Positions 1,702-4,263 of a DNA stretch of 5,097 bases are shown here, piece after piece; the first letter of the stretch is position 1, and every line of letters begins with the position of its first letter. The notes under the pieces were generated by a model. It did not search any database. It was not told the origin of the DNA and worked only from the letters and a program-made list of their open reading frames with translations. Location: NCBI GenBank assembly GCA_030628225.1, contig DAOVRJ010000180.1, forward strand, positions 1 to 5,097, in the 5' to 3' direction. The position numbers and the translations under genes are program-made. This DNA comes from Candidatus Zixiibacteriota bacterium. Its GTDB lineage: Bacteria; SM23-81.

Positions 1702-1791
1702 TCAGCGGAGATTGAAGACATCGTAACCGCGCACCCGGATCTCGCCCGGCTTGATCTGCGCCATAGCCGTCTTCCACAAATTCTCGGCCAT
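1702..1791 (-). pseudogene. N-terminal remnant of a citryl-CoA lyase / citrate synthase-like gene (29 codons)
   Basis: From ATG at 1791 the frame reads MAENLWKTAMAQIKPGEIRV, continues with RGYDVFNLR and stops with TGA. The pattern WKTA..xIxPxxIxxRGYxxxxL recalls the N-terminus of citryl-CoA lyases and the short citrate-synthase-like proteins related to them. In those proteins the helices and the active site follow over another 200 or more residues. Here nothing recognisable follows in any frame of the 90 bases before priA. I therefore read it as the broken 5' end of a deleted gene. The same frame stays open upstream to an ATG at 1935, but that segment overlaps a promoter (1889-1917) and is unlikely to be translated. 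No strong ribosome-binding site precedes 1791 (only an A/G-rich stretch). It could alternatively be a chance short ORF or a leader peptide for priA. The homology is from memory of the family and was not searched. Confidence 0.4.
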
Positions 1792-2000: not shown

Positions 2001-2158
2001 GAACGCCAACGGAAGTCGCCTGGGGCCGATGGTTAGCCAGTTGGCGGCCCTGGCGACTCCGAGGTTGAAACTCGAAAAGGAGGCGATGCCCATCGAGAGG
2101 TAATCGTGCGAAGTTCCCTCCTCAGGTTGATTACGCTAAATAAAAAAGGGGGGGCGAC
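2001..2158 (+). promoter_or_regulatory. Structured 5' leader of DUF3303 copy 1, candidate cis-regulatory RNA
   Basis: The leader has a strong stem-loop: AGTCGCC (2014-2020) with GGCGACT (2052-2058), continued inward by GGGCC (2023-2027) with GGCCC (2046-2050). A small CGAG/CTCG hairpin follows (2060-2074). The part from about 2075 to the start codon aligns with the leader of copy 2: AAAGGAGGCGATGCCCATCGAG here against AAAGGGGGTGATGCCATCGAG there, then GAAGTTCCCTCC against GAAGTTACCTCC. The CCTCC element (2117-2121) can pair either with GGAGG upstream (2079-2083) or with the G-run ribosome-binding site (2148-2154). I do not recognise it as a known riboswitch class. Confidence 0.5.
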
Positions 2159-2494
2159 ATGCTTTTCTTATCCATCTTCACCTTTGATGCGGTGAACCGA
2201 GGGACTATCATCAAAAGACGCGCCTTGGATGGTGAGAAAGCCCCCGAGGGCGTCCAAGTGATCATGGAGGTGGTTGATCTAGCTAAAAATCGCGTTTTCC
2301 GCATCTCTGAGGTAACCGATCCCAGAGCCATCTTGGCTGCAAACATGGCCTGGAGCGATCTGGGAAAGATCGAGACCTTTCCGGTCATGGAAACCGCAGA
2401 GGTTCTGGAAACCATGCGGCGGATGAATGAGAAGGAACGTTGCCGTGAGAAGAACGTTCGCCCGCTGGAGTTCATCTCGCAACCTCAACTTTGA
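2159..2494 (+). CDS. DUF3303-family small protein, copy 1
   Basis: This 111-residue protein of unknown function begins MLFLSIFTFDAVNRGTIIKR. Typical for DUF3303 are the hydrophobic first strand, the PEGVQV segment (residues 29-34) that starts the second strand, the EVTDPRAIL segment, the AWSDL motif (residues 64-68) and a following ETFPVME strand. That order suggests a ferredoxin-like, dimeric alpha/beta-barrel fold; no signal peptide or membrane segment is seen, so it should be cytoplasmic. It is about two thirds identical to copy 2 over the first 88 residues, with divergent charged C-terminal tails (here ERCREKNVRPLEF...). The ATG is supported by alignment with the paralog and by a GGGGGGG ribosome-binding site 4 bases upstream. 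Conserved coding similarity alongside diverged third positions argues that both copies are under selection. The gene is monocistronic: own promoter, leader and terminator. The family assignment is by recalled motif pattern. Confidence 0.85.
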   Translation: MLFLSIFTFDAVNRGTIIKRRALDGEKAPEGVQVIMEVVDLAKNRVFRISEVTDPRAILAANMAWSDLGKIETFPVMETAEVLETMRRMNEKERCREKNVRPLEFISQPQL

Positions 2495-2500
2495 GGTTTT
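2481..2500 (+). repeat. Inverted repeat over the copy 1 stop codon
   Basis: AACCTCA (2481-2487) and TGAGGTT (2492-2498) form a perfect 7-bp hairpin with a 4-base loop, and four T residues end at 2500. The TGA stop is inside the 3' arm. The T-run is short, so it may slow decay or add weakly to termination rather than act as the main terminator, which lies at 2564-2600. Confidence 0.4.
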
Positions 2501-2563
2501 ACAGATCCGCTGGGCTTTCCAGGCTATCCTCTGCGGTGGTCAACTCGATCGGATTTGATGGAA

Positions 2564-2600
2564 AAAGCGGGGCAGGCTGACAAACAGTCTGCCTCGCTTT
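2564..2600 (+). terminator. Terminator of DUF3303 copy 1
   Basis: A 16-bp hairpin, fully paired with two G-U pairs (2564-2579 with 2585-2600), encloses an ACAAA loop. The 3' arm ends in TTT but is followed by GCATC, so the T-tract is short. It aligns with the terminator of copy 2 (similar arm sequence, A-rich 5-base loop and the same TTTGCATCT after the stem), which supports its role. Confidence 0.7.
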
Positions 2601-2708
2601 GCATCTGTGGTCAATTTTTCGCTGAAACCCTCAGCACCCGGAAGTGGACTTCGATGAGGTGCCGGCAAACAGAAAAGAAAAAAATCTGTAAAAACTTAAA
2701 AAAAGGGC

Positions 2709-2737
2709 TTGACAAAAATCGGCCGATATGATAAAAT
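2709..2737 (+). promoter_or_regulatory. Strong promoter of the second DUF3303 unit, with a palindrome in the spacer
   Basis: A perfect TTGACA (2709-2714) is followed after 17 bases by TAAAAT (2732-2737). A-rich tracts immediately upstream (2680-2704) resemble an UP element. Transcription should begin near 2744, giving a leader of about 190 bases. The spacer holds the perfect 10-base palindrome ATCGGCCGAT (2718-2727), a plausible repressor or activator site. This promoter is closer to consensus than that of copy 1. Confidence 0.8.
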
Positions 2738-2743
2738 GGAATT

Positions 2744-2932
2744 GTAAGGTGAGAAAACCATGTTTGTGGCTCGTGATCCGTTTTCGCAGAAAAGCCTTCC
2801 TATTGTCATAACCACGCCCCATGAAACGAACACGAGCTACCCGTTCCCTGTAAAGGGGGTGATGCCATCGAGGGGTATTTGTAAGAAGTTACCTCCGGCG
2901 CTCGATTGCGCTGCATCGGAAAAGGAGGACAT
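2744..2932 (+). promoter_or_regulatory. 5' leader of DUF3303 copy 2, candidate cis-regulatory RNA
   Basis: The 3' part (about 2850-2932) aligns with the leader of copy 1. Visible pairings are GATGC (2861-2865) with GCATC (2913-2917) and ATCGAG (2867-2872) with CTCGAT (2901-2906), which together form an interrupted 11-bp stem. CCTCC (2892-2896) can pair with the ribosome-binding site GGAGG (2924-2928), or with the upstream G-run (2855-2859). The first 100 bases differ from copy 1 and lack its large hairpin. No known riboswitch consensus was recognised. Confidence 0.5.
2922..2928 (+). promoter_or_regulatory. Ribosome-binding site fixing the copy 2 start at 2933
   Basis: AAGGAGG is a full-length Shine-Dalgarno match 4 bases before ATG 2933. 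A TTG at 2906 in the same frame would extend the protein by 9 residues. It would put this element inside the coding region, and it has no counterpart in copy 1, so 2933 is chosen. Confidence 0.85.
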
Positions 2933-3262
2933 ATGCTTTTCCTAACCATCTTCACCTTTGATGCGGCAAACCGAGAGGCCATCGTCAAAAGGCGCGCTCT
3001 GGAGAAAGATACTGTCCCCAAGGGCGTCCAGGTACACATGGAGGTGGTCGATCTTAGTAAAAACCGGGTTTTCCGCATCTTCGAGGTGACAGACCCGAAG
3101 GCTATCCTGGAGTCTAACATGGCCTGGAGCGATCTGGCAGAAGTAGAGACCATTCCGGTCATGGAGATCTATGAGATGATGGAGGTCATTGAGCGGATCA
3201 ATCGGCGGGAGCAGCTCGGCAAAGAGCTGAGCGATTCTCTGGAGTTGGCTTCTCTGATGTAA
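2933..3262 (+). CDS. DUF3303-family small protein, copy 2
   Basis: This 109-residue protein begins MLFLTIFTFDAANREAIVKR. It matches copy 1 through the whole predicted domain: PKGVQV at 29-34, the DLSKNRVFRI segment, EVTDPKAIL and NMAWSDL, then the ETIPVME strand. A C-terminal segment rich in Glu, Arg and Met follows (EMMEVIERINRREQ), probably a helix, and the tail differs from copy 1. The family's biochemical role is unknown; members are small single-domain proteins that look like dimeric ferredoxin-like barrels. No signal peptide or membrane segment is present. The start is set by a perfect ribosome-binding site. It has its own strong promoter, a long leader with possible switch-like pairing, and a good terminator, so it is probably the more highly expressed copy, but that is inference. 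Confidence 0.87.
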   Translation: MLFLTIFTFDAANREAIVKRRALEKDTVPKGVQVHMEVVDLSKNRVFRIFEVTDPKAILESNMAWSDLAEVETIPVMEIYEMMEVIERINRREQLGKELSDSLELASLM

Positions 3263-3325: not shown

Positions 3326-3361
3326 AAAGGGGCCAGGTTGAAAAACAGCCGGCCCCTTTTT
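3326..3361 (+). terminator. Rho-independent terminator of DUF3303 copy 2
   Basis: AAAGGGGCC (3326-3334) pairs with GGCCCCTTT (3351-3359), and after a bulged A the inner GGTTG (3336-3340) pairs with CAGCC (3346-3350) around an AAAAA loop. Five T residues (3357-3361) close the element. The layout repeats that of the copy 1 terminator. Confidence 0.85.
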
Positions 3362-3573: not shown

Positions 3574-4263
3574 TTAGCTCTTCTTCCGTCTCCGGGAGAA
3601 TCTGCCGAAGACGCCTAAACCCAGCAAGCCACTGCCCAAGAGCATGAGAGTGCCCGGCTCGGGGACAGGAGCAAAAGTTTCCTGTCCAGCAGACAGCGGC
3701 TCAGGTGTGTAGATATACGGCAGATCAAAACTTTCCCGATGATCGTAAGCCTCCGCCAACCAATCTACCGCATCCCCATATGAGCTACTCGTCCGGAAAG
3801 CACCGCTGGCCAGGTTAAGAGAAGATTTGGTGCCGCTGAAATCTGTGGCCACCTCCCACAAGGCCAGATTTAAGTTCGCCCGTCCATATTTGTCCAAGCT
3901 GTGCCTATATGTGGTGTAAAGATAATTGACCATGCGGTACTGTTGGATCGCTGTGGCGTTAGAGGAGTAGTTAAAAAGCTTTCCATTGCCTAAAGCGATG
4001 TTGCCGGGTGCGTAATAATGAGCCTGCCACGTATCTCCGGAGCTCATGAAGGTCCGAGTATCAAAACAGAGTGACAGCCAAGGGTTTCCATCTACCTCAA
4101 AATTATAGAGGCCGGCATAGACATCCCTCCACTGGCCTATATAGACACGCTTTATTACCTGGTCATAGGCCCCCAGAAAATGGATGCCGACATAGGCAGA
4201 GGCAACTGTTGAAATAAGAAAAATAGTTGCCATTATACTCACAACCACGATAAGCTTCTTCAT
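3574..4263 (-). CDS. Secreted PEP-CTERM protein with a thioester-domain-like region
   Basis: This 229-residue protein is exported and probably sorted to the outer surface by an exosortase. Residues 1-23 are a signal peptide (MKKLIVVV, hydrophobic core, cleavage likely after ASA). The C-terminus is a standard PEP-CTERM signal: VPEPG at 200-204, a hydrophobic helix at about 205-220 and a basic end (RFSRRRKK). The body resembles thioester (TED-like) domains found in other PEP-CTERM proteins: YAGLYNF at 49-55, LCFD with C66, MVNYLY at 111-116 and LNLALWEV at 131-138. In that family a Cys and a Gln form the bond; the Gln position appears to be N132 here. I chose the start at 4263 because AAGGAG lies 9 bases upstream (4273-4278) and the signal peptide begins there; an in-frame ATG at 4305 would add 14 charged residues before it. 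The gene is monocistronic, with no exosortase nearby. Confidence 0.9.
   Translation of the reverse strand: MKKLIVVVSIMATIFLISTVASAYVGIHFLGAYDQVIKRVYIGQWRDVYAGLYNFEVDGNPWLSLCFDTRTFMSSGDTWQAHYYAPGNIALGNGKLFNYSSNATAIQQYRMVNYLYTTYRHSLDKYGRANLNLALWEVATDFSGTKSSLNLASGAFRTSSSYGDAVDWLAEAYDHRESFDLPYIYTPEPLSAGQETFAPVPEPGTLMLLGSGLLGLGVFGRFSRRRKKS

Follow-up and report, generated by a model that had tools for sequence, protein, structure and literature searches.

A conserved 45-nt core in the leaders of two DUF3303 genes of an uncultured Zixibacteria relative, a candidate cis-acting RNA stem-loop

Leaders that sequester the Shine-Dalgarno (SD) sequence include translational riboswitches, RNA thermometers and autoregulatory leaders of the ribosomal-protein type. 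The leaders of two DUF3303 genes in an uncultured sediment bacterium (Candidatus Zixiibacteriota) resemble them in carrying a conserved, putative 5' stem-loop ahead of the SD and a C-rich strand that could pair with it, and in that each gene appears to lie in a transcription unit of its own. They differ in that no aptamer is supported by covariation, SD pairing is favoured in only one of the four copies that we compared, and Rfam holds no match. A search of the leaders gave a best E of about 2, to unrelated families and far below the gathering scores, in line with a sequence-only reading of this DNA that had assigned the leaders to no known class. As in FourU thermometers, a U-rich partner, CUUUUYC, is predicted for the SD (AGGAGG) in leader 2 and in both leaders of the related genome SM23_81; however, the U tract lies here downstream of the SD, in codons 2-4 (an MLF start), and not upstream. 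A thermosensor, which the same reading had listed among its candidates, does not hold for the FourU type: no upstream UUUU tract pairs with the SD, and the sole U tract that does (CUUUUCC in leader 2) is inside the coding region. The hairpin between the SD and the first codons was no better than its shuffles, and since the U tract encodes an MLF start, common among the DUF3303 proteins seen here, protein coding may explain the U-rich codons.

The window, by which we mean the whole stretch of 5,097 nt that was analysed (contig DAOVRJ010000180.1), comes from an incomplete genome of 2.34 Mb, and the analysis covered four genomes of the phylum. The nearest relative among these is Zixibacteria bacterium SM23_81 (LJUY01000070), which belongs to the same family and to another genus, and whose bin name is consistent with the White Oak River estuary sediment series (PMC4411801). 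Both DUF3303 genes of the window are on the plus strand, copy 1 at 2159-2494 (111 aa; PF11746, E 2.7e-18) and copy 2 at 2933-3262 (109 aa; PF11746, E 1.9e-19). They are duplicated genes of unknown function whose proteins share 60% identity, and a divergent priA fragment precedes them both. SM23_81 has a tandem DUF3303 pair too, adjoining priA and an intact citryl-CoA lyase gene. At the equivalent position of the window (1702-1791) we observed a remnant of the latter, 28 codons with 68% identity to the intact SM23_81 gene. As only this remnant is present and no second copy was found elsewhere in the incomplete source genome, this genome appears to have lost the citryl-CoA lyase gene.

Each DUF3303 gene has a predicted sigma-70-like promoter on the plus strand. 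The one before copy 2, TTGACA-17-TAAAAT (2709-2737), matches the consensus at 11 of 12 positions in the promoter scan. That before copy 1, TTGCTT-17-TATTAT (1966-1994), was missed by the scan and was read by eye; its stretch CTTGCTTTTTT...ACATATTTTTG aligns in the SM23_81 ortholog. Terminator-like hairpins lie on the same strand 3' of copy 1 (2564-2600; -27.6 kcal/mol, z -7.7) and of copy 2 (3326-3360; -25.3 kcal/mol, z -4.6), with folds far stronger than that of the leader core described below. With its own promoter and a strong terminator-like hairpin, each copy probably forms a monocistronic unit whose leader is 160-190 nt long. The two hairpins are mutually alike, with a stem of the GGGGC..GCCCC type, and comparable hairpins are found 3' of both SM23_81 copies. 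Leader 1 has, further upstream (2015-2057), a long GC-rich hairpin that the other three copies do not conserve.

Three segments had been described as common to both leaders, in the same order: a purine-rich element, a middle element containing CCTCC, and the SD. Direct reading confirmed the segments and their order. In leader 1 they are GGAGG (2079-2083), GAAGTTCCCTCC (2110-2121) and the SD GGGGGGG (2148-2154), followed by the ATG at 2159; in leader 2 they are GGGGG (2855-2859), GAAGTTACCTCC (2885-2896) and the SD AAGGAGG (2922-2928), with the ATG at 2933, all on the plus strand. The earlier coordinates were all correct except that the middle element of leader 1 starts at 2110 and not at 2111. 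Further, the conservation in orthologous leaders on which the sequence-only reading depended was found, with equivalent segments kept in order and position in both SM23_81 DUF3303 leaders. Among dinucleotide shuffles of a single leader, 8-13% contain a 5-mer able to pair with the SD as well as with another 5-mer further upstream (loose criterion), and 0.2-0.9% do so when the segments must be as G- and C-rich as those observed, a strict criterion that was chosen after the data had been seen. Conservation across genera, judged from sequence comparison, is much stronger evidence than such a single-leader test, and it is the evidence that we regard as decisive.

The conserved part is a core of about 45 nt that begins with AAGGRGG and ends with CYTCY. 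Copy 1 of the core (AAGGAGGCGATGCCCATCGAGAGGTAATCGTGCGAAGTTCCCTCC; 2077-2121, plus strand) agrees with its SM23_81 ortholog at 41/45 positions and with copy 2 at 36/45. Copy 2 (2853-2896, plus strand), one C shorter after GATG, agrees with its own ortholog at 35/45. Over all six pairs of the four copies, identity is 76-91% in the core, 71-75% in the last 80 nt 5' of the start codon, and 40-54% in the transcribed 70 nt upstream of those 80 nt; it is 50-66% from the core end to the start codon and 46-69% at four-fold degenerate codon sites. In the two orthologous pairs, the core is set apart from the upstream leader (Fisher, p = 8e-11), the downstream part (p = 2e-4) and the four-fold sites (p = 1e-4), and the edges of the conserved block coincide exactly with the complementary arms GGRGG and CYTCY. 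These comparisons demonstrate, at the level of sequence, a lineage-specific 45-nt core conserved in both DUF3303 leaders and under selection, because its identity exceeds that of the rest of the leader and of the four-fold sites.

We found the element only 5' of DUF3303 genes, at four places in total. A covariance model of the core recovered the four known copies (E 4e-16 to 1e-17); no other match in the phylum's four genomes fell below E 0.6. Twelve weak extra matches appeared in 386 sampled genomes, and they are at chance level, since the best E of 0.0048 is a per-genome value that spans 386 genomes; those inspected look like coding sequence or lack the leader layout. When about 85,000 species genomes were scanned for the exact pattern, 44 stretches were returned, with SM23_81 as the sole true relative; the other stretches look like chance matches, mostly within coding sequence. 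No relevant match was present in the viral contigs searched, and a two-sequence protein alignment found none in the genome contigs, the patterns being too narrow. DUF3303 genes in other phyla belong to the same protein family (PF11746), but those of their leaders that we inspected are without such an element. By these searches, the element appears to be confined to one small lineage.

The explanation that we favour, and to which we give an even chance of being right, is a lineage-specific cis-acting RNA stem-loop in the leader of each DUF3303 copy, probably with an effect on translation. Each leader would contain one element of about 45 nt, its 3' end 36-37 nt upstream of the start codon, folding into an imperfect stem-loop. 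Its arms would be GGRGG(Y)GAU on the 5' side and GUU(M)CYUCY on the 3' side, and the loop between them, GYCCAUCGAGRGGUAWUYGURYRRR (about 25 nt), is highly conserved. Acting as RNA with its arms paired, the element would set the translation of the gene behind it, either via the CCUCC arm and the SD or via a factor that binds the loop. A protein, a small RNA, a ligand or temperature could serve as the trigger, and our first guess would be a trans-acting factor reading the conserved loop.

The candidate arms are GGAGG (2079-2083) and CCTCC (2117-2121) in copy 1, and GGGGG (2855-2859) and CCTCC (2892-2896) in copy 2, where one A-U pair has become G-U. Pairing of GGRGG with CYTCY is kept in 4/4 copies (20/20 cells), and together with the inner GAU:GUU helix 32/32 cells are paired, with two one-sided G-U changes. 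When the two-helix structure, which was derived from the same four sequences that it was scored on, is slid by 1-3 columns, 50-65% of the cells pair. Besides these paired cells, the stem-loop is favoured by the excess identity of the core, the bounding of the block by the arms, the occurrence at DUF3303 genes only, and the promoter and terminator-like hairpin of each copy. Against it, no compensatory double change is seen, the RNAalifold consensus of the four sequences was no better than column shuffles (197/1000 as good), and one of the four cores prefers an alternative stem, GAGGG:CCCUC; taken singly, the cores are only 0.7-2.4 sd more stable than their dinucleotide shuffles. Because only four sequences exist, a constraint at the DNA level or from coding is statistically compatible with the data.

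If the stem-loop is true, a poorly sampled phylum would gain a cis-regulatory RNA motif not described before, and a link would be made between regulated expression and a domain of unknown function. The gene pair also makes a small and clean test case, with a promoter, a leader and a terminator-like hairpin per gene, and the element reused in two paralogs and two genera. A further step, namely a new lineage-restricted class of regulatory RNA, possibly sensing a ligand or a protein, in which the 25-nt loop is closed by a GGAGG:CCUCC stem, seems to us decidedly doubtful. We give just as little credence to the accompanying idea that this stem mimics the SD/anti-SD pairing, competes with ribosome binding and so controls the DUF3303 protein.

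The sequence-only reading had gone on from the three segments to a switch of the anti-SD/anti-anti-SD kind, in which CCTCC would be paired with GGRGG when the gene is on and with the SD when it is off, and this we consider unlikely. The layout survives, as each of the four copies can form two helices that exclude one another and use one strand in common; CYTCY pairs with the SD 5/5 in every copy, leader 2 needing a one-base shift. In the predicted ensemble of leader 1, CCTCC is mainly with the SD, and SM23_81 copy A is predicted to be partly in the other state. The switching itself did not fare as well. The SD-bound state has weight only in leader 1 and is almost weightless in the other three, and the two states are thus not of comparable predicted stability. 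In the ensembles of leader 2 and both SM23_81 leaders, the partner of CCTCC is mostly an upstream segment, frequently the inner GAGRG rather than GGRGG, while that of the SD is the U-rich start of the coding region; the GGRGG-bound state is weighty only in SM23_81 copy A and, given a short 3' end, in leader 2. The covariation that had been proposed as a check was not seen, since neither in GGRGG:CYTCY nor in CYTCY:SD is any pair changed on both sides among the four sequences. Also, the link from CCTCC to the SD is outside the conserved block and evolves about as fast as silent sites, and chance pairing between G-rich and C-rich 5-mers is common, as the loose criterion above shows. Switching of CCTCC between GGAGG and the SD is therefore weakly supported by the four sequences.

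It is improbable that the core is a DNA-level operator, that is, 45 bp downstream of the promoter bound by a transcription regulator. The high conservation, the short inverted repeat GATG-YC-CATC and the position in single copy per gene would suit an operator, but the predicted promoters are about 80-110 bp upstream of the core, the half-site spacing differs by one base in leader 2, and the block ends exactly at the complementary RNA arms.

A translated upstream ORF, starting at the ATG inside GGAGGYGATG and controlling the gene by coupling or attenuation, is quite improbable. This ATG, with an SD-like sequence 5' of it, is present in 4/4 copies, and would encode MPIER*, MSIER* and MSIEGYLYKVPSSA* in three of them. 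Leader 2, however, is frameshifted after ATGCC, and its 27 residues extend past the DUF3303 start; read in the unshifted frame, the codons that follow would be similar to those of SM23_81 copy B (EGYL), and the missing base could be an assembly error. Against the ORF stand the differing stop positions (5, 5, 14 and 27 codons), with start, frame and peptide not conserved, and the conservation that extends beyond the stop codons. Further, the ATG is just 2 nt after AGGAGG, and none of 30 AGGAGGYGATG sites inspected in the two genomes is a convincing start of a long gene. As a separate observation on short frames, in both genomes a 62-codon frame starting with GTG is preceded by AAGGAGGTGATGGGNTAAGGTG, a two-codon upstream frame directly 5' of the start.

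Finally, a functionless similarity left from gene duplication is very improbable: the genes are paralogs and the region adjoins coding sequence, but the two genera share the core, while outside it the leader is randomised and identity at four-fold sites is down to 46-69%, and recent gene conversion is not the reason for the likeness because the copies group by orthology (leader 1 with SM23_81 copy A, leader 2 with copy B).

As for the proteins, none of the papers searched named DUF3303. The predicted fold (pLDDT 75) reaches TM values of only about 0.4-0.5 to small alpha/beta proteins, and the model is suggestive of a resemblance to monooxygenase-like, LsrG-like and muconolactone-isomerase-like folds. 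Downstream of the pair, the window carries on the minus strand (3574-4263) a gene for a PEP-CTERM protein (TIGR02595, score above the cut-off).
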